A stretch of 64,000 nt of DNA from Arthonia radiata (taxonomy: Eukaryota > Ascomycota > Arthoniomycetes > Arthoniales > Arthoniaceae), in assembly GCA_002989075.1 (NCBI GenBank), contig PSQN01000013.1, positions 62,001-126,000 of the forward strand, read 5' to 3'. The notes under the pieces are model-generated. The model ran no database searches. It saw only the letters and a list, made by a program, of their open reading frames with translations, and was not told the origin of the DNA. This document shows, piece by piece, positions 1 through 53,695 of this stretch. How positions within the stretch are numbered: position 1 is the stretch's first letter; the number at the start of each line of letters is the position of its first letter. The translations under genes were made by a program, and so were the position numbers.

Positions 1-210
1 TAGCAAAGCGGCTCGCCGCACTCTTTGTTGCATAGCATGTATGGCAAAAAAACCCCAACTGATCGCTCATATGCACCGCCTATCTATGGCAGGTGCACCA
101 TAAAAATCCCATCGATGCTCACTATCCAGTCATCTCTCCTGTCTTCAGCATGCACCCAGCGATTCGACGACAAACAAGAACATAGTCTCCGAGTGCCCGC
201 AATCTCTTCC

Positions 211-737
211 TTAATGCTCGCTTTTTCTGGGCTTATATTTCCGGCGAATGCGTTGGAGGAAATTCAGCTGTGAATTTCTAGTCGTCCCTATTCGTGTGCT
301 TTGCTGCGCAGTCAAGGGTGGAAATTGCAACTCAGTATGGGAGCCGGGCGCCTGGCTGTGCTCCTCCGCGACTTGGGGAAGTCCAGTTTCACCTACCTGC
401 GGCCACGCCACGAAAACAGGAGCCGTCTGTTGACCACCATATAAGAACACGATCGAAAGTCCGCGTAACCCTTGTTGACGATCGGGACTTTACATGTAGT
501 CAGAGGCGTCCACGAATGCACACGGATACCAGCCTACCTAACAAATGCAGAAATTGCCTCCGTGAGCACTGCGAGGTCAGGAAATCTAGCTCGGGCCGCC
601 AGTACTTGTCTGCGAATAATCGCTTCCCAGTTCTCTCCGAGGAGCCGAACAACGTCATCATGGACTTGCCCAAATATCAAAAAGCGTTGTCCGGTCTCTG
701 CTGGATGAATTCGTATTGGATGGATTGGATGAGACAT
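211..737 (-). CDS. Member 1 of an unrecognised small-protein family (two exons)
   Basis: Function unknown. Exon 1 is 737-538 and exon 2 is 487-211, giving 158 residues. The 50-nt intron (488-537, donor GTAGGC, acceptor AAAG) lies in phase 2, and splicing keeps the frame open to the stop at 211. The first half holds the family core: a beta-like stretch, then GENWEAIIRR near residues 35-45 in a likely helix. Exon 2 opens with QQGLRGLSIVF, which aligns with QQGVQGVSIIF in the neighbour at 1222-1623. The C-terminus is basic (RIRRKYKPRK). The ATG at 737 was chosen because upstream in-frame starts are not ATG. The gene is the first of six same-strand paralogs. The donor is weak, so the exact splice is the least certain part. 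No signal peptide or membrane segment is visible. Confidence 0.6.
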
Positions 738-864
738 GATCACATCTGTCGTAGGATTTTGAGTGCTGGGGTCAGCGCGGAAATTGAAGCTTGATTGAGG
801 AGTTTCTGATTGTTGATCTGATAGTGTGCCACTACAGGGACGTTTAATAATCCCTGGCGTTTTT

Positions 865-1083
865 TCAATATCCACAAGGACAGCGGCATCGCTCAGACCG
901 CTGTGAATGCGTTAGCGCGAGTACGAAGTATCCATTACGCAACGGGTATTCTCGGCTGAAAAGATGAACAGACCGACCTCCATACCGTACTACTTCCCAT
1001 TCAAAGTATGTTGTCTGCGAAACCTGATCTTCAAATTTCCTTTTGCGGACGAGCTTCACAACTGTCCGTCCTTGCCTTGGCAT
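865..1083 (-). CDS. Possible small gene or exon, unknown
   Basis: An open frame from an ATG at 1083 to a stop at 865 encodes 72 residues containing VVKLVRKRKFEDQVSQTTYF and a cysteine-rich tail (ERCRCPCGY). A pyrimidine-rich stretch ending TTCCTTACAG lies just upstream (ends about 1121) and would be a good 3' splice site, so this could be the last exon of a gene. It sits between family members 1 and 2 but I cannot align it convincingly with their exons. It may be chance. Confidence 0.22.
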   Translation of the reverse strand: MPRQGRTVVKLVRKRKFEDQVSQTTYFEWEVVRYGGRSVHLFSREYPLRNGYFVLALTHSQRSERCRCPCGY

Positions 1084-1221
1084 GATCAATAATTGCCTCT
1101 CCCAGACAAATGGAATATTCTGTAAGGAAAAGTGATTAACAGACTAAGGTTAGTAACAGGTCCAATTTCCACATGCCTCAACTAAACCGACCGATATCTT
1201 AGGCAACTTTTATGGTTACCT

Positions 1222-1623
1222 TTAACAAGGTCTCCGCCGGATGCGGCGCTGGATCCGCCGCAGCCGCGCGTCCGCACTGGTACACCCACAAAGCCGACCC
1301 AAGATATTCCACCCCCGCCTTGGATGCCCCACCGGTGACTCTGGCGCCCGCCTCGCCACTTTCTCAAAAGACTGCCCACAGCGTTGAAAGTTACGATAGA
1401 AGATGATGGAAACACCTTGCACACCTTGTTGTTGCGCAAACCCCACGTCAACCGAGGTCGGCGTGGTCATGTTCTCCCGTAACTCGGCGTAAGCTTTGTG
1501 GATTTTGGCCTCGACTGTGTGCTTCCAGTTGCGCCCAATTAGAGTGATGACGTCGAGGTCAACATTGACGTTAAGGTTGAGGACGCGTTGGCCCAAGGGG
1601 AGCTCGAGTTGAAAGTCTGGCAT
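1222..1623 (-). CDS. Member 2 of the small-protein family, intronless copy
   Basis: Function unknown; 133 residues from the ATG at 1623. The N-terminus MPDFQLELPL is followed by the core LNVNVDLDVITLIGRNWKHT, with the family G-x-N-W motif around residues 30-33. At about residue 66, where the other five members have a phase-2 intron, this copy reads straight through: TSVDVGFAQQQGVQGVSIIF. The downstream part aligns with exon 2 of member 1. The C-terminus is arginine-rich, as in members 1, 3 and 6. The frame upstream of the ATG stays open but offers only non-ATG starts. The simplest reading is precise intron loss. A GC-rich terminal third makes the exact end less certain. Confidence 0.6.
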   Translation of the reverse strand: MPDFQLELPLGQRVLNLNVNVDLDVITLIGRNWKHTVEAKIHKAYAELRENMTTPTSVDVGFAQQQGVQGVSIIFYRNFQRCGQSFEKVARRAPESPVGHPRRGWNILGRLCGCTSADARLRRIQRRIRRRPC

Positions 1624-2127
1624 AGCTGCGCCGCAGTTGATCAGGCGCGTCTTGCTGCGATTAATGATATAGTGCACGCTCGGCTAGTGGCTTCACATTC
1701 ACGCGAAGCTACGGTATAAGGTACAGATAGGGCGCTGGTAGAGAGGTGTGGTGGAATAATCATATCGATACGGCGGCGAAGATGGCGATGTGATTTCTAT
1801 AGATATGCAAGATGCGGACAAGTGTTCCCCAATTAGTCGCGGCGCCAGTGAAGAAAATTTACTACCCTTTTTACCAGCTGCGCGGAAGACTTACATACAT
1901 GAGCAATGGCAAAAGAGATGGGTAGTTTCTCACTTTGGGTCGTTGTGGGCAACGGCGCTGCCATGCACGCGCTGCAGAGAATCATCTGTAATGAGCTGAT
2001 TCTTCGAAATTGTGCAAGCTTTACATTCTTTCCTCTGCCGCGCGCTCCAGCGAAGCGCACAGTCTCGTTACTTGGTGTGGTCCGGGTGCGGCGCATTGAC
2101 TCTCAAGACGATGCAATGCGGCCAGCG

Positions 2128-2579
2128 TTACGGCGAAGTTTGCGTCTGACGTCCTGCTCTTCGCCTTCTTCTGCCGCGCGAAAACACGTCTCCGAGCCAT
2201 CTGAAGATGAGTGCGCCGATATTAGGCTCGTTTGTGACCTCGGACATTTGAGTGACGAAGTTGTGAGTGCTATCGAAGAACTCAAAGTCAATGATCCTAT
2301 AACCGTCGTTGTCGATTCGATGGGCACTATCTCGATTACGTTAGTCATGTTTCCATCATCAGCTAGAGAACCATCAACAGACTACACTCGACAAGTCAAC
2401 ACGTCGACTCTTCCCAGATGATGGAAGTGTGACTCTACTTGCTCCCTAAGTGGCTCGGGCTCTCGCGGGTTGAGGCGAGACAGTCCGTCGATGACTTCCA
2501 AATCCACTATGACATGCAACCGTACATTTCTAGGGAACTCGGTGTTGTGGACGAAGGTGGTGATCCAATAGTCTGGCAT
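2128..2579 (-). CDS. Member 3 of the small-protein family (two exons)
   Basis: Function unknown. Exon 1 is 2579-2386 and exon 2 is 2326-2128, about 130 residues. The 59-nt intron (2327-2385) has donor GTAGTC, a textbook branch sequence TGACTAAC and acceptor ATAG, in phase 2 like members 1 and 4-6. Exon 1 begins MPDYWITTF, close to MPDFQLELP of member 2, and carries the core LHVIVDLEVIDGL. The G-x-N-W motif is eroded here (SRLNPRE). Exon 2 contains DGYRIIDFEFF, matching the hydrophobic strand after the splice in other members, and ends in an arginine cluster. A longer open frame on the opposite strand (1906-2421) is treated as a shadow. Confidence 0.6.
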
Positions 2580-4551
2580 GGCGGAGGCGTTCGATAATAG
2601 ACGCGCGATTTTACCCACAGAAAAGCGACGCCGGCAGAAGCAGGGCGTTGTCACCTAGTGTGAGACGTGGCGGAAAGCGAGAGACTGTGTTTGAAACGCG
2701 AACAGCAGCGACCGAATGGAGTCTGGCCTTGATCGTAGATCTGTTGACACCATTCGCAAAGTACCTGTATGCGGAAAGGGTCCCAAGAAGGCTAATATTT
2801 GAAAAAGGACACGCTGACGATTATTCAATCTAATAAACTTCGTCTTCATCCTGTCAAAACGATCACCAACGCCTCTGTCGGCGCCAAGGACGCAGATGAA
2901 CCAGATCGTCCAGCCAAAGGGAGCGTCCGATAGCGCCAGCGTGATGATAGTGTGCTGGAGTAGCTAAGTCGTTGGTCTCTGTAGTCACAGCGGCCACGGA
3001 CTGCGAAGAGCTTGTCGCTAGGTGTGATGAAGGATGTCCTTGATCCACCTCGGGAGCATAGCCTGCGCAAGGTTTGTTTCCAAACAGCATCAGCAGGCTA
3101 CGACGTTCGTTAAGTACAGCTGCTGTGAGGGTCTTCTTCCAGAAGCGAACGCCTTCCACCCAGCGCATTCAATCAGAGAAGCCAGCACAAGGAAAGCAAT
3201 AGCAACACAGACTCACCTCCTACGGCCGATCAAACACTCGCGGACGTCTTTGAATTCGAAAAGAATGGCATCGCTATCGCTACGTTCGTAGCTGGCTCGG
3301 TTAGGTAAGGGTCTTCGATGCGTGGTACGTAGGAAGTAATAAGCTTTCTTCTACCGTAGACACTCAGCATTACCCCTTCCCCCGGAGGGCTGGCACAAGT
3401 TCTGAAACGTGGGCTGAGGCAAACCTGGGAGGGGCCCGCGAGAGGGGCCCCCCCGAGGGAGGGAGTACCTGCGGGAGGACCCAGGTGTAGGCGAAGGCCG
3501 GGGGGTGGGGAAAGAGGACTTAGGGGTTTAGGCCCCTAAATTCAGTTTCTCGGGGGCACACCAATTTGGAATTGGAGTATGGGATTGGAATGCGTGAGTG
3601 CCCTGAGCCTGCCCGCTAGTTCCGAGGCGTATGAAGATCTCGTACGACTCGATCGGGGTTGTTTATGGCTTGCGACTTGGATAGTAGCCAACAAGAGTTT
3701 TGCTCCTTTCTCTTGAATTGTTACAATGAATGACGGAAAGTGCGGCGTGGTATGTTCCCCTGAGATTAATCATCCGGGTGCGGAGGTCGTCTTGGCTTCT
3801 TTCCCCATCCCCAAAGCAGGGAACTTGGTGAGTTCATGGAAGCAGTCGAAGTGGATGCTTTCACCGAAAGCGCATCTTGCATGAAATTGAGACCTTCAAT
3901 GAAACACATCACGGAACTAACGCTGTCCTTAGCGACAGTATATTTATAAGTTGCATCTTGGGTTTAAACGTACTTGTAGCTATAAGCTGCGAAGCTAATT
4001 GGACTCAAAGATTGCGCCCTCGTATTGAAGTAGTAGTTCTGGTATCATGTGGCGCGAAAATGGATTTCAATAGGCTGTTGTCGAACCATTGGAACCTCGC
4101 AGAGACATTAGGGACCGAGGTTTATTGCTCAACGCAGCCAGCTTGTCATACATTGGCCGAGATTATGCCGTCTTTCAAGTAAGGTCGCAAATTCTGGCAG
4201 TGGTATTGTACCCGGCGGCCGAAAATAGACATGAGGGCAAATCAAGTTGTTCGGTTATACCCGGTACAGACACTGAACAATTCCTCGAGAAATTTCCTGC
4301 GAGTCTGGCGCTGAGTTCTCTGTTCAGGGCTTGCGTGGATCTGATGGGCTCTTGCGTGAGTTGACTCCCGCGGATGCTGCAAGGTCAGGTTCGAGGGTTG
4401 CATGTTCGCCTGTTGGCTCGTCGGATAGTGGCGATGCTGCACGCCCGTGTCTGGACGATTCATGCCCACTTCTCCATGAATGGCTGGGAGTTGCTTCTCT
4501 GGCACAGGATGGCCAGGGACTGGCTGATGCCCAAAGGAACTTGTACCATCC
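2580..4551. other. Gene-poor interval between family members 3 and 4
   Basis: No gene is recognised in this 2-kb interval. Open frames on both strands (for example 2863-3168 minus and 3877-4182 plus) are short, overlap one another and show no domain. A GC-rich segment at 3372-3560 is listed separately. I could not find the family core motif here, so either the array has a real gap or a decayed copy is no longer legible. Confidence 0.5.
3372..3560. other. GC-rich, G-run-dense segment with small inverted repeats
   Basis: Against balanced surroundings, this stretch is packed with G and C runs. It contains local palindromes such as GGGGCCCGCGAGAGGGGCCCC and TTAGGGGTTTAGGCCCCTAA. The G runs (GGGAGGGAG, GGGGGGTGGGG) could allow quadruplex formation. 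No coding capacity is evident. Function unknown. Confidence 0.45.
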
Positions 4552-4979
4552 TCATGCGTGCTGTGTGATTGTTCGGAGGGTTCGCTTCCAGCAGTCGCAA
4601 GACGCTCGCCCCAGTGATGCAGTCCTAGAGTGCTCCAAAGTCTTACAGTGCTTGAAACCATGATCACTGTAGAAGTCGATCAAGAAGCACCAGCCTTTTT
4701 TCATGACTCGTGCCACCCTAAAGTCATGTGAGCCCGATTCAAGATGACAAGATCGAGGCAGGGCCCGAGCTCTCACTTCACAGAAGCGTAGTCAATGTCA
4801 ATCCTGCTCCATGGATTCGCCAGCTTAAGCCAAAGTGCTGTTATGTCTGCTCGAATGTATGATTCGAAATTATCGCCAAGCCCGTCCACAACCTCTTGAG
4901 TGATCCTGACGCGTATCGTGTGCAAGCACGTTCCTTCGGATTCCGATGTTGCTGCGACATATATATCAACCGTTGCCAT
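4552..4979 (-). CDS. Member 4 of the small-protein family (two exons)
   Basis: Function unknown; 122 residues. Exon 1 is 4979-4777, exon 2 is 4717-4552, separated by a 59-nt intron (4718-4776) with donor GTGAGA, a possible branch near CTCACATGAC and acceptor TTTAG, phase 2. Exon 1 encodes MATVDIYVAATSESEG and the clearest version of the core: LHTIRVRITQEVVDGLGDNF, then ESYIRADITALWLKL, ending in the strand RIDIDYASV. Exon 2 continues VARVMKKGWCFLIDFYS and is cysteine-rich near its end. Exon 2 is exactly 166 nt, the same as in member 5. Secondary structure reads as strand-helix-strand-strand. The start is an ATG with no upstream alternative needed. Confidence 0.66.
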
Positions 4980-6268
4980 TGCGGCCTATTAGAAAAGAGA
5001 TTGGATGCGAAATGGGCTTGACTTGTAGATACAAATGAGGCAGGGAAATTATCATTGGATCCGGTGTCGTCTTGGATGCGTGATAACCTTCGATGTTTTT
5101 GGAGTTCCTTCAAGGCTCACCACTCCTCTAGACCATCTTTTGGGTCCTTCATTTCTCGAAAATGCGATCTTATAAAGATATTCAAGATTGCGGCCATGTC
5201 GGATGCAAAGCCAACGAGTCTAGCTTGACAGGCAGGCATAATGTGATTGGACGTTGAAGGCCTGGTCAACGCGTGCTGAGTTATTGGCGTGGCGGTCCGG
5301 CCACGAGCAAGGCTCTACCCTTTGTTTCTACGGACTTGGTCATTATGAGGAGCCAACCTGGGTTTCAATATGGAAACATCCTTCTTGACGGTCGCCAAGC
5401 AGCTAACCGTCACACCCATTTGAGAGAAAAGTGCTGAAAGGATAACAAGCATGTGCACCGACTCGTAGATCCTCAAGATCAGTCCGGTACGACTACAGGC
5501 AGATGTAATTATATACAGTTTCAGGAAGATTTTCTAAAACGCGGTAAGAAATCCCTGGAAGGGGCCGGAATTTGCTCTTACATTTTGTGCGGGGTTTAAT
5601 TTTCCAGTCTTTAGTGCCACTGCATGGATAGTAGGTTCTAGTCTTTCTCCATTGTCCAACTCCATGACCATAGTTCTTCATTTGAGCCCACGGCACTTGA
5701 GGCATTTTGCGGCACCTCCCGTTAATGGCCCTCGAGATGTCGTCCTTGATCAGCTGCACGCAGATGGCTAGGTCCAGACAAAGTGCCATAAGATGATCAA
5801 ACAAATGGTCAATCTAAGCGCGACCGCTCAAAATGTATGGTTTCTGGAAGGGTCTTTGTCAGCTTTCTCGCGTCACCACGACGCCTCGACAGAAGACTGC
5901 GTAAGTGCATGATCCAGCCTTGAGCCTGAGAAGGTAAATACAGCTACCAGTGCGTCTCAAGAGAAGCGTGAGATTGAAGATGAGCGCAATAGGCCAGAGT
6001 ATCAATGGTTTTGCGACGACAGTGGCAGCTGTGGACGCTTTGCGTTATTTTCAACCCTGGTTGACGGAGATCTGCAAGCAAAATGACGAATCATCTGCTC
6101 CATCCGGAGTATCCTGCGCTCATATAAGCCTGAGTAGCAAGGCGTGGCTAATAAATTCAACGAGTACGCGTGGGGACAGTTTCAAAGGTCGTGACGTTTT
6201 CCGACTGCGTGCGCAGGAGCCAACCTTGTGACAGCAGAGTAGCTAATTATATGACCGCAGATTGCGAA
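4980..6268. other. Gene-poor interval between family members 4 and 5
   Basis: No gene can be supported. Two modest open frames exist: minus 5493-5789 (98 residues from an ATG, several cysteines) and plus 5950-6231. Neither has a recognisable domain or splice-site support, and neither carries the family core motif. Confidence 0.45.
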
Positions 6269-6685
6269 CTACCGGCGATAGTCGTGGTATTGATAGACCT
6301 GATTTGGATGCTGTAAGTTGAACTGCTCGGGAGGCACAAGACGTGACAATACACCGAGACGCTGACGTTTGTTGTTTGTGAAGACGTAGTCAAGCCAATA
6401 ACGTGGTCGTCCGTTGATCTCTTCCTGTCGCCTCCTTTACATGTTCAGCCGAGAAACTAGCGCAGGATCTTGCAATGGTGATACGCACGTCGCGTGAGCC
6501 CGCACGGTGCCTCGCTGAGAAGATAAGTTGGCATGCCAGTACTGTGTTGCGTCTTTTCGGACTATTGTGTTCCAGTTGTTGGTGAACATGTCTACAACGC
6601 CGGGATCTGCGTCAATGCGTATGCAATGGTGCCACTGAGTCATGCTCCTATCAAATGTCCAGATATGTACACGGGTCCGCGGCAT
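6269..6685 (-). CDS. Member 5 of the small-protein family (two exons)
   Basis: Function unknown; 120 residues. Exon 1 is 6685-6489, exon 2 is 6434-6269. The 54-nt intron (6435-6488) has donor GTGCGT, branch-like GGCTGAAC and acceptor TAAAG, phase 2. Splicing removes an in-frame stop route and opens a clean second exon. Exon 1 carries the core: HHCIRIDADPGVVDMFTNNW, then NTIVRKDATQYW. Exon 2 includes RPRYWLDYVFTNNKRQR and LVPPEQFN, which aligns with LPVPQDIWF in member 6. Exon 2 length (166 nt) equals that of member 4. No signal peptide or transmembrane segment is seen. Confidence 0.66.
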
Positions 6686-7092
6686 GTTGATCCGCCTGAT
6701 CTCTCACGCCGTGCTCGCGTTTCTCGGATCGGGTCAGGGCGCTGTGAATAGGCAGTCTATATCGGGTAGGTCTGTGTCTTCCGGATGGAGGTGTTATCGA
6801 GGTCTTGTCCTGTCGTCATTCGTGGTGTTCGATGGATGAAAGCTTGTCTTATCAGGTCATCGCCACGGGATGAGCTTCCTATAGATATACTTGAGATGGA
6901 TGAGATGACACCTTCATCATTGAATACATGTATGACCTCCTCAATAGCGATCAAACGTAGAGCATATCGCTGTGTAAACGCCAATTCGAACACCTTTCTG
7001 AAGATCTCCTGAACGTGGTAAGTATTGTAGACGACTTACGAGGAGTTGTCTTTTGCTTCGCCTTTTTGATACTAAAAGTAGTATGCATTACA

Positions 7093-7673
7093 CTACTGCT
7101 GTTCCCCTCGATACTTTCGGCGAAACCAATCACCCACTTTTGCTGCGTTCCATCTGCGGTGTGGGCGACTCTCTCTCACTTGAGGTTCCAAACTCGTTGT
7201 CGATGTGTAGGGAAGTACGGGTGCGGTGTCTGTTTTCGTTCGACGGACTTCGAAGAGCGTCGAGTCCATAGTAGTTGTATTCGGTGCTTCACACCAGGGG
7301 CGCAGGCGGAACCAGATATCTTGGGGTACGGGAAGGCGCCCAATGTCGCGAAGTTCTCCGTCCTCGTCGTAGCATTCATGCCTAAGAATTGGCTCCCTGC
7401 CGACTCGCGCTATCCTAGTCGAATCAGCTCGAAACGCTGGAACCATTTCAAAGTAGGATCAGCTTACTCAAGGGTATATATGCAAATTTCTAGCCTGCTT
7501 GCGAGTCGCCAGTGGCTGATTACGGGCTCTTGCACACTGTGGTACCAATCTGTGCCAAAGATGCTGGCAACCTCAGGGGTAACCCTAATATAGATGGTGT
7601 GCTCCTGGTGATCCCTTCTCCGGCCAAGAGGAATATGAGCTTTCGTTTCGAGCAACGTGGTCGCTTCTAGCAT
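7093..7673 (-). CDS. Member 6 of the small-protein family, longest copy (two exons)
   Basis: Function unknown; 175 residues from the ATG at 7673. Exon 1 is 7673-7468 and exon 2 is 7414-7093, separated by a 53-nt intron (7415-7467) with donor GTAAGC, branch-like GCTGATTC and acceptor CTAG, phase 2. The core in exon 1 is HTIYIRVTPEVASIFGTDWY, then a helix ending SHWRL and the strand LEICIYTLE. Exon 2 starts IARV, like VARV in member 4, and continues GELRDIGRLPVPQDIWFRLR. It adds a tail of about 60 residues ending KVGDWFRRKYRG. That basic tail resembles the ends of members 1 and 3. This is the distal member of the array. Confidence 0.64.
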
Positions 7674-9516
7674 GTTGATGGCTTCGTTTCCAGATGCAAG
7701 GTCATCAGCAGTCACTCACGCGTTCAAACTGTTAAGCGAACCAAGATCAAGCATCAATTCGGATCAGGTTGCCAGGGTCGGCCCGGGATTTCTCGGCATA
7801 GTCATATCACTAATTGCGCAATTGGTTGCACAGTATTTGGAAATTGATGGAGAAGATAGATGGGAGTGTGTTACTTCTGAGATGCCGCAGGCCGGGGACA
7901 AACGACGCACTATGCCACGCTAAATGGGACAGGTGTATCATGGATGCTTTGGCCATCGTAGTGTTTCGCCACGTGATCAATACATTCGGTTGCTTTGCGA
8001 GTCGGCAAAGATGCTGAGATACAACAAAGTGGGCTGTAGGCTTGCCAAAGCTGGGGTTCAGAGACGGACGGGTTAGTATAATTTTGAGCTCAGGTGCTGC
8101 TGGGACCCGATAACGCGTGCTGTGCTTCGGCAATTAGGCTCATGTGTCGGTGCCATGCCGGCGTCAATCCTTGCCTGCTTTTTGGTGACAAACTTCTTTG
8201 GGGTAAATAAATGTGCAGTCAAGGGCGAATCATGTTCAAGGGGACATTGGGATCGAAATAAGCAATGCCGGGCTGAGGGAACGCTATCACCAATGTAGCT
8301 TAGACCGCCTCAAAGCCTTCTCCGACTTAACCTACCACTCTCCATCTCAACGAGTACTTCGCCCGGTCGTCCCCGATCTGATGTCCAAGCCGCTATCATA
8401 TTGATTGCCTGCGCTGAGGCTTGATATTGGTCTTCTAAATTCTGACCAGGAGTTTGGCTAGTCCCTATTACCAGCCTCTCCTGCCGAAGCGTCCGGACGC
8501 ACAGCTGTGCACCGCGGTCAAGAGCTGGGAAATGCGCACTTGCGCTCTACAGACCCGCTCAACTTAGGCCGACCTGGAATATGCCTATACTTTGCCGGCC
8601 TCCTTCGAGCTGTGTGGGTTGTAGACTTCAAGGACAGGAAACATAGCTTGGGAATATAAGAGGGAGTCCTTACCGCGTCTTAGTATTGCTGCAAGCACCA
8701 GAACTCTCCGTTGGCCGCGCCGGATCTCAGTCGCTCAAACATCTTCTCAATCGTACACTGAAAGCTGGTGCCCTGACATCAAAGGTGCCCGCGGTCCTGG
8801 CATGAAAGAGATAAACGCCGGGGACGACATAGTAGAAAAAAGATCGTTTGATACAGATGCCAGTGACCGCTCACGGTGGTTCATACTCCGGGAAGGTCTG
8901 AGAAAGCTCCGAAGATGCTCTGATGAGACCAACCATGAATACTTTCAGCCCACTTCCAGGACTCCCTCGGACAGCCTACCGTGTGTTGCTTCGTCGTTCC
9001 AGACGAGTGGGTAGATAGCTTTGCGGCGATCTTGGACGTCAGGCTTAGACACTAAAGGCCGGCCCAACAATTTCCAAGCATGGACCCATCCACACCCGGA
9101 GCAATGTAGCTCAGACCATGTCACTCCCGCGCCCTCGCCAACAGCATATCGCCATCCCCTTGGCAATGAGAACGATCTCATGAAAGACACAGAGTGTGTT
9201 GGTGAGCTTTCGCAATCAGATCTGATTGAGCCTATGCGGATAATGCCGCGAAGTTCGCTGTCGAGGGAGGCACAAGGGGGTAAGTGCGATCGAGGCTCAA
9301 GTGCTGCGGGGTAAATCAGTCGTAGCAAGTGGAAAAGGGTCGTCGGGCCCCATGCCAAGACCCAAACAAATCGAACCCCATACAGCGTGGTAAGAGCAGC
9401 CCATGTCTTTGCAAGCATTAAGAGCAAAAGAGAAGAAGAAGAAGAAGAGTACTACTATATCGTAGGCTGTCATTTTCTCTTGTATCAAGAGGTCAGGTTA
9501 ATCCAACTTCTATGCC
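7674..9516. other. Gene-poor interval
   Basis: No gene is recognised. Open frames on both strands are short and mutually overlapping. The only notable low-complexity feature is a short AAG/GAA trinucleotide tract near 9432-9450. Confidence 0.45.
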
Positions 9517-9805: not shown

Positions 9806-10321
9806 TGAACTGTGTCATCTCTACAGAGTGTTCTTGGGATACAAAATATAACGTTCAATTAATTGCACTTATCACTTTTTGCACACGCGATTGTCCCGAC
9901 GCGCAGCAGCATCCACGTTTATAGCACAGTCTTCGATGCTCTCCAATGATATCTCATACAATGCAAGCAATTTGTACGGCACTTAATGCTGATGCGTTAC
10001 AACCCCCTTTCCAAGTAGAGCGGATTGGGTTTAACGTAACAGCTACGTCTTGAGCGTAAGCTCTTGTATGCACCGAACGCAAAGCATCAACGCAGGTATG
10101 TACTGCGAATCGTCCCATACAGGTAGCTACGGAGTCACTGATAATACGTCATTGCTATGCCAACTGGCAAGTACCGTGTGGAACAACGTTGATTTCGTCT
10201 GTAGGAACAAGAACAACATTCTGCAACACATCGTTTCGCTATCGCTATTATAGATTATATGCACTAAGTACACGCCTGAAAACTAGGTTGGCGAATGCAT
10301 CGTCGCATCGTCAACGACGCT
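9806..10321. other. Intergenic interval downstream of the CHRD gene
   Basis: No gene or repeat recognised. It lies 3' of the CHRD-domain gene, which is transcribed toward it, and beside the hairpin element. Confidence 0.45.
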
Positions 10322-11084
10322 CTAAGCCAATTGCCCGCGCACGGCACCAGGAACCGCCAAGCTGGAGTGCACGTCTGCGAAGAACGCAGCCGGGTTTCGC
10401 TCGATCTGTCCCACAGTGAAACCAGCGCCAGTATCCATGCCGTTCATCATCACACCGGTCACGAACGGTCCGGTCTGGCAGCCGACGCTGACGCGTCTTT
10501 TCTCGTCGCCGACAGGATTTGGGAAGGCGATGCGTGGTGGGCCAGAGGTACCGACGGCGGCCTGGTGAATGTGGGTGGCGGTGCGCGCTGGCGACGCATA
10601 GTCGCCGCGGAAGCCGGTGAGAACGATGTTGTAGCAGATCAGGTTCATGTCGGAGTTGATACCGAAGTCGTAGGTGCCGAGCGCGCCCTTGTGTCAAGTC
10701 AGCCAACGGTCCAGCTGGTACGTCAGCAGAGCATGGGGGCTGAGAACTTACAGCAAGGCCTCCAGTCCTCACGTTAGCAGTACCATTGACGACTTGATCT
10801 GGGGTTGCAGTCACGTGGTAGGTGGATGTGAAGTGGAAAGGCCCGTTGTCGCATGAACCATCGTTAGGGCTAGCTGCCGCAACTGGCGCTGCTGGATAGG
10901 CGCCAGCAGGTGCAGGGTAACCGCCGGCTGGGGCTGGATAACCGCCAGAGGGTGCTAGGTAGCCACCGGCAGGAGCTGGGTAGCCACCAGATGGTTCTGG
11001 ATATCCTCCAGCTGGAGCTGGGTAATCCGTCGGTGCCGCGATAGCAGTAGTAAGTAGCAGGGCAGAGGCAGCAGTGAACTGCAT
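10322..11084 (-). CDS. Secreted CHRD-domain protein with GGYPAP repeats
   Basis: Predicted extracellular protein of 232 residues; biochemical role unknown. Exon 1 is 11084-10752 and exon 2 is 10687-10322. The 64-nt intron (10688-10751, donor GTAAGT, acceptor CAAG) is in phase 0. Residues 1-17 form a signal peptide (MQFTAASALLLTTAIAA). About 45 residues of imperfect GGYPAPAGGYPEPSG repeats follow. The C-terminal ~150 residues match the CHRD family (PF07452) as commonly seen in Dothideomycetes: GTYDFGINSDMNLICYN, then TATHIHQAAVG and SGPPRIAFPNP, ending AVRGQLA. Without the intron the reading frame drifts into a non-homologous tail, so the spliced model is preferred. The repeats look like a flexible, surface- or wall-associated linker. 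Confidence 0.85.
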
Positions 11085-52227: not shown

Positions 52228-53695
52228 ATGCCTCGTAAGAAAGGGCCAACCTATGCATATACCCCAGGGGAGCAGTCCCAACCCTTGCCTCGTCCTGAAG
52301 ATACTTCACGTCGACCAGCTCCGGGCTTAACATCTAGGCTGGACAAACGGAATCCGAACGCCAAATCCACACGTCCAAGTCCTGCACCAAAAGTAACATA
52401 TGCGTATGTCCCAGAAGGTACTACACCTCAGCCTCTGACACTGCTGTTAGATAGATTCATAGGTTAATGAGTATCAAGGAGCGACCGAGCTAGAGCACTT
52501 CATGAACCGACCTCAGCAGGCGTTTGCGTCGACTCATCCCCCATTATTCGAGCAGCCACAAGAGGACTTCGACCCTGAGGTGTATGCGCAGCTATTTGAG
52601 CAGCCGCATCAGGCACAAGGATATCACTACACAAATCAAGAGCCCGACGAGTCTGCTGGCGAGCCTCCGCAAGAACACCAAGGGTCAGACTCGGGCTGCC
52701 TACCTATCCCCAAACAACGCAGGCGCGAAAAGAAACCGAAGAGAGCCAAGAGCCCTTACTATCATGGAGCTGATGATGGGAAAAAGAAAGCAAAGGCCAA
52801 AGCAAAAGCCAAAGTGCCGCACCGGCGAAAACACAGACGAAGCGACACTCATGCGCTCAGCTCTAGTGGCTCGGAAGTAGGCGAGAGGGCAGCAAGATAC
52901 TATCACTCCAGTGTATCATCGGACGATTCCTTCAAGTTGCCACGCCGGCCAAAGGAAACGCCGTCGCCAAGAAGAAAGGGCAAAGGTAGACAAACACTTG
53001 ACACGCCAGAAGATTCAGAAGGCGCACCTGCAACGTCATCTCACGAGCGCGCAGCCCATCCGCAAAGCTTGAGTAAAGACGACTTCGAGCACTACCTGAA
53101 CGCGTTGGCAGAAGAGCTCCACTCCACACATCTGCATCGTCTCCAGATGCACCCTCGGCGCGACCCAATTGTTATGGTCGCTTTCGGTGGGATCGTAGAG
53201 ATGTTGTCACCTGGCGGAGAGCACTCTTCCAAATTGTGTCTCCTGCTCGCCGACCCAGACCAAAATGATCACGCCTTCCGACGCGCCATACATGCAGCCC
53301 AGCGGCACACAGGCGTCGAAATTGATGCTTACGACCCGAGAGGTGTCGTACCCCAGGGCGAAGCGCACATGGAGCTGATCATCGAAGCAGCCAAGTCTCG
53401 CAACCACGTGATCAAGACGTATGGCTCGCCGTGCTCGCTGAAAGTGATCAGCGCGCCAGCTATATGGAGCCTTTTCTGCCTCATAGATGTGATCCAGGGC
53501 CATCTTGATCATAACGAGGGTCCGAAGGACGAGACTGTTCGGCTCGCTGCGCGCTGCATGGAGTCATATTATCATCACAAGCCTGGTACAGAAGCGCCGC
53601 CGCGACTGACCCGTGCGTCTTTGGAGAGAGGATGCCGTTTTTTCGGAAGCGGTGCACAGACGGTGCGCTGCGAATTGTGCAGGACATGTATATAG
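52228..53695 (+). CDS. Hypothetical protein, disordered basic N-terminal half (two exons)
   Basis: Function unknown; about 463 residues in the spliced model: exon 1 52228-52417, intron 52418-52493 (76 nt, donor GTACTA, branch-like GGTTAATG, acceptor CTAG, phase 1), exon 2 52494-53695. Without splicing the frame ends at 52467 and a second frame opens at 52502. The N-terminal half is low complexity, with TYAY-P motifs, two LFEQP boxes and a Lys/Arg tract (KKKAKAKAKAKVPHRRKHRR) that would act as a nuclear signal. The C-terminal half is ordered: FEHYLNALAEELHSTHLHRL, a hydrophobic PIVMVAFGGIVEML segment, and HAAQRHTGVEIDAYD. A terminal CELCRTC motif closes it. Convergent with SEC10. Confidence 0.6.

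Follow-up and report, generated by a model that had tools for sequence, protein, structure and literature searches.

The contig PSQN01000013.1 (here C3, 1.83 Mb) of the Arthoniomycete Arthonia radiata (assembly GCA_002989075.1), probably a lichen-forming fungus, carries an array of seven diverged genes, six of which lie in the 64,000-nucleotide stretch analysed here (C3:62001-126000, hereafter the window) and one to its left. With moderate confidence, we favour the view that these genes form a tandem family, as yet unnamed, whose small α/β products are probably intracellular, end in a basic tail and are likelier to be binding modules than enzymes. The original prediction, made from the letters of the window, had proposed six minus-strand gene models, all of which were found again. 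The seven members (g0 to g6) occupy the same strand, adjacent and head to tail with intergenic gaps of 407-1972 nt, and lie at 61-70 kb from an end of C3 that opens with CCCTAA telomere repeats, which places the array near a chromosome end.

Each protein was scored by a hidden Markov model (HMM) built from the other six, and this leave-one-out score was compared with those of 1000 shuffles of the same protein and of 1547 background open reading frames (ORFs) of 60-300 residues. Neither a single shuffle nor a single background ORF matched the score of any of the seven members (Table 1), including that of g3, the weakest and most diverged (E 0.06; 10.8 bits, with the best shuffle at 9.3). On sequence grounds, these scores confirm that the seven genes are homologues beyond chance, and the proposal of a single family is upheld for every member.

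Frame-specific conservation provides what we regard as the strongest evidence for putatively selected coding genes. When exon 1 alone was used, the true frame proved open and conserved for all seven members, none of 500 shuffles reaching the score of any of them; in the two other frames and one antisense frame, between 2 and 465 of 500 shuffles did so, the lowest counts being 2 and 5 (g4) and 18 and 22 (g5 and g6). The exons of different members showed no significant similarity as DNA (best E 0.37), and the best protein pair within the family is 32% identical, in agreement with the old or fast divergence that had been proposed from their low DNA identity. Since the exon-1 signal is clear in the true frame alone and no significant DNA similarity is left, selection appears to have kept the protein and not the DNA.

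The array is larger by one gene than first noted. We built an HMM from exon 1 of the window members and ran it against 6037 stop-to-stop frames of at least 25 residues in the first 256 kb of C3 (of which 4530 bases are N); it recovered the six together with one more frame, C3:61717-61397 (E 6.8e-6), which belongs to g0; the next best frame reached an E of 0.39. Further left, at C3:60580-60482, the V..LLGxN pattern (here LLGKN) is followed by a stop codon. This place scored 6.7 bits, with one unrelated place higher and another equal, and is only suggestive of a relic of a further member.

We also searched the whole genome (33,499,693 bases in 16 contigs). Single members each matched themselves alone, except that g1 also reached g2 (E 0.0027), while a consensus of six members found six loci and missed g0. 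The left-group consensus found its own four members and the right-group consensus its own three plus g1; a seven-member consensus, with E up to 10, returned exactly the seven loci and no other. Because the right-group consensus reached just one of the four genes of the left group, the genome may contain a distant eighth member outside the array. A DNA search for copies of the array with window positions 1-9000 returned, besides itself, 19 matches to two dispersed repeats, and none of the matches listed fell on family genes. One of these repeats lies between g3 and g4 (window 3332-3616; 17 genome matches listed, 70-89% identity). The other is present as a short relic (window 1103-1197) that matches a single place on each of C3 and C16 at 74% identity, and neither place of this 90-nt repeat holds a family gene. 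A 72-residue open frame on the minus strand between g1 and g2 (window 865-1083), with no Pfam match at E 0.1, may be due to chance.

Five of the six window genes require an intron (g1, g3, g4, g5 and g6), whereas g2 is uninterrupted. A scan of frame-keeping introns bore out the claim that these five share a phase-2 intron of 50-59 nt after 194-206 nt of coding sequence; all of those used are GT..AG introns (Table 1). For g1 and g4 the intron is the single frame-keeping one within the range scanned. Alternatives are possible for g3, g5 and g6 (in g5, for example, an intron of 57 nt; in g6, two later acceptors), and g0 allows several, among them a phase-2 intron at 206 nt whose donor, GTCTGT, is unusual. 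On the sense strand of the 300 nt upstream of the seven genes, no 7-mer or 8-mer recurs in at least four of them; six 6-mers do, where 2.74 are expected, and none is found in five.

Table 1 Members of the array, with positions in the window unless marked C3.
Gene	Span	Strand	Exon 1	Intron	Exon 2	Coding nt before intron	Protein	Leave-one-out HMM score
g0	C3:61648-61122, left of window	-						26.7 bits, 0/1000 shuffles
g1	737-211	-	737-538	537-488 (50 nt, phase 2)	487-211	200	158 aa	23.0 bits
g2	1623-1222, single uninterrupted frame	-					133 aa	18.9 bits
g3	2579-2128	-	2579-2386	2385-2327 (59 nt, phase 2)	2326-2128	194	130 aa	10.8 bits
g4	4979-4552	-	4979-4777	4776-4718 (59 nt, phase 2)	4717-4552	203	122 aa	26.1 bits
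g5	6685-6269	-	6685-6489	6488-6435 (54 nt, phase 2)	6434-6269	197	120 aa	22.0 bits
g6	7673-7093	-	7673-7468	7467-7415 (53 nt, phase 2)	7414-7093	206	175 aa	23.3 bits

The products, 120-175 residues long, had been described as sharing a V-x2-h-h-G-x-N-W core. The motif is looser than that description, with the exact G-x-N-W read from the gene models in two of the six window members (g1 and g2): the W is replaced by F in g4 and the N by D in g6, the G is missing from g5 and the motif as such from g3, and g0 reads G-D-G-W. Across the six exon-1 rows a single valine is invariant and no polar residue is, so that this exon offers no obvious catalytic residue, which argues for a binding module over an enzyme. 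The final 35 residues carry a net charge of +4 to +10 in all seven proteins, and this basic tail is variable and often arginine-rich.

Beside the array, at about 13-43 kb of the window, lies an AT-rich island with a strong dinucleotide bias of the kind typical of repeat-induced point mutation (RIP; composite index +1.2 to +1.6). A subtelomeric position next to such DNA is thus supported; the accessory compartment of the original prediction is putative, and the frames that flank the array look by eye like ordinary enzymes and transporters. The genes as they stand show no trace of RIP (composite index negative in all seven, -1.08 to -0.16), and we rejected it as the cause of their divergence. 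Comparable RIP-type bias marks the beginning of C3 and the region near C3:160-195 kb; outside the AT-rich islands, the first 256 kb of the contig appears ordinary.

Tandem, subtelomeric and RIP-adjacent settings are often reported for effector genes, and the array might accordingly be thought to encode secreted or host-directed, effector-like small proteins, acting toward the algal partner or competing microbes and diversified by tandem duplication; its high divergence and lack of a database match would fit. However, hydropathy profiles of all seven proteins revealed neither an extended hydrophobic segment nor a clear signal peptide or membrane span, and the best 12-residue mean within the first 30 residues (-0.2 to 1.56) falls in strand-like stretches and not in a clear N-terminal hydrophobic core. 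The proteins are therefore probably intracellular and, with few cysteines as well (0 to 5 per protein), effector-like products seem unlikely.

The layout closely matches a known pattern of tandem, subtelomeric orphan paralogues, of which the array would be an instance, the family itself being new to the libraries searched. According to Kasuga et al. 2009 (PMC2684829), 82 of 250 best-hit pairs of Neurospora crassa orphans lie next to each other, and in 73 of those the orientation is head to tail; adjacent pairs are enriched near telomeres, have a mean identity of 36.1% and bear no RIP traces, and clusters of five or more are marked. Like those clusters, the genes described here are adjacent, head to tail, subtelomeric, free of RIP traces and without homologues in the searches made, and they are likewise very diverged, the best pair (32%) lying below the N. 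crassa mean. The two cases differ in that the N. crassa orphans occur mostly in pairs, whereas seven genes stand in one row in a member of the Arthoniomycetes; the members also share an intron position, and the word "intron" is absent from the main text of that paper.

A second study (PMC10684091) describes lineage-specific Neurospora genes as close to telomeres, clustered, often duplicated, nearly devoid of domains and tied to HET-domain genes, and reports that sexual development was blocked in 3 of the 367 knockouts examined. A role in fungal self/non-self recognition or in reproduction could thus be proposed for the array, which has the same layout as the orphan clusters of both studies and is likewise near a telomere, clustered and duplicated. 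In contrast to the HET-associated clusters, none of the at least 24 HET-domain matches in the genome lies in C3:1-256000 (on this contig the closest one found sits at 828 kb), and we regard such a role as improbable.

The original prediction had offered no name for the family, and none emerged from the libraries searched. In Pfam, no window member reached a curated cut-off (best PQQ_2 for g5, E 0.0034, 17.5 against 27.6 bits), and three consensus sequences plus g0 gave nothing convincing (DUF6974 for one consensus, E 0.05, 14.2 against 26 bits). NCBIfam (six members) gave a best E of 0.2, PHROGs 0.076 and PADLOC no match; among PDB sequences the alignment found none, and one consensus pointed to an amine oxidase at an E of about 0.9. 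In a set of 5.8 billion proteins, a word-based search of limited sensitivity scored 7986 candidates for the six-row alignment, none at E up to 10, and 25 for g2 alone, none of them matching. Proteins of relatives are included in that set: Sec10 from the window comes closest to Arthoniomycetes there, with 88-89% identity to the top three matches, one from Coniocarpon cinnabarinum. Literature searches did not find the family named, which is no proof of its absence from print. With no name in any library searched, one new orphan family is added, and it is apparently lineage-restricted.

To obtain a view of the fold, we ran AlphaFold2 with shallow alignments on full-length g2 and on exon 1 of g4. 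Because MAFFT misplaced exon pieces, the g2 alignment was made without the exon-2 pieces of g3 to g6 and with shortened exon-1 pieces, so that the alignment behind the second half of the model consists of g2 itself and one 22-residue piece of g1. The best of five g2 models has a mean predicted local distance difference test score (pLDDT) of 67 (52.6-67.0 over the five) and a predicted template modelling score (pTM) of 0.55; in residues 1-90 the pLDDT is about 71-89 by ten-residue blocks. It contains strands at 3-10, 13-21, 57-65, 68-77 and 80-88 and helices at 23-29, 33-49 and 115-129. The g4 exon-1 model (mean pLDDT 76.5, pTM 0.54) has strands at 4-14 and 17-26, a helix at 28-53 and a strand at 63-66. 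The predictions for the two members thus agree on a β-β-α-β arrangement for the exon-1 half, although the models are not independent, as their alignments contain pieces of the same exons.

Fold searches in the PDB and among viral models, which cover the families in those sets, gave no match at E up to 0.001. Among the non-significant PDB matches, HPF/protein Y recurred for the g2 model and chains of the 40S subunit for the exon-1 model; in a second look ToxR chains outscored HPF, and a designed protein ranked first for the exon-1 model. The resemblance of the models to an HPF or ribosomal fold is a weak hint only. It could mean that the family is a very diverged branch of a known α/β family that escapes sequence tools, such as one with an S30AE/HPF-like or other ribosome-associated fold. 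The g2 model does weakly resemble HPF (S30AE) chains, but the alignments mostly begin at its residue 16-18, omitting the N-terminal strand, and the match is not significant; S30AE/HPF is also absent from the listed Pfam and NCBIfam matches of the six members, which extend to E 10, and from the Pfam matches of the three consensus sequences and g0. We find such an origin quite improbable.

Two results limit the case for selected, protein-coding genes. When codon usage was scored after training on 39 long ORFs, 12 to 28 of 74 chance ORFs nested in other genes did as well as the members of the array, so this measure gives the coding genes no support; bias this low would be compatible with genes that are young or weakly expressed. 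In addition, when the first 50 residues of exon 2 were scored alone by leave-one-out, the signal was nominal at best: 27 and 43 of 1000 shuffles reached the scores of g1 and g2, and 132 to 787 those of the other five members. The shared core that had been claimed is accordingly conserved in its exon-1 half and hardly so after the intron (27 to 787 of 1000 shuffles). That the genes are decaying or non-functional duplicates, their frames open but their proteins unselected, would accommodate the weak codon bias, the weak or absent exon-2 signal and the possible relic beside the array, yet it is very unlikely, since all seven first exons are conserved in the true frame despite the lost DNA similarity and drift would be expected to erase the protein signal too.

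Other features of the region were noted in passing. A secreted-looking minus-strand frame with GGYPAP-type repeats (window 10311-11084) overlaps, in another frame, a CHRD domain (PF07452, Pfam E 8.1e-9; window 10325-10648), and the two are probably parts of one spliced gene. A plus-strand frame of 397 residues (window 52502-53695) has no Pfam match at E 0.1. Left of the array, frames at 8-58 kb of C3 resemble by eye what we take to be a transporter, a glutathione transferase, proteases and a subtilase.

Taken as an unnamed family of small binding modules, the array would go back to one ancestral gene, interrupted by an intron about 66 codons in, and to several head-to-tail duplications of it close to a chromosome end of an arthonialean fungus. 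The copies would have diverged until exon 1 alone was recognisably shared, and g2 would have lost its intron. The closest relatives are neighbours (g0-g1-g2 and g4-g5-g6), which fits the prediction of serial tandem duplication, the order of duplication being itself a reconstruction. Each product would combine one α/β domain, predicted to hold a β-β-α-β unit and additional strands, with a basic tail that varies between members, and the copies may have specialised as binding modules through surface and tail. Any function assigned to these proteins is held with low confidence; as a first guess, and a doubtful one, the partner would be nucleic acid or the ribosome.

A bolder version, which we consider a long shot, is that both family and fold are undescribed and were born in the Arthoniales, the proteins serving as interchangeable recognition or regulatory modules that keep a core while their basic tails and surfaces diversify. 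If true, these lichen fungi would possess their own repertoire of proteins that bind nucleic acid or other partners. The array also offers a test case of how far selected tandem copies can diverge beside DNA with RIP-type bias, and suggests that the orphan-cluster pattern of Neurospora occurs in a lichen-forming class too.

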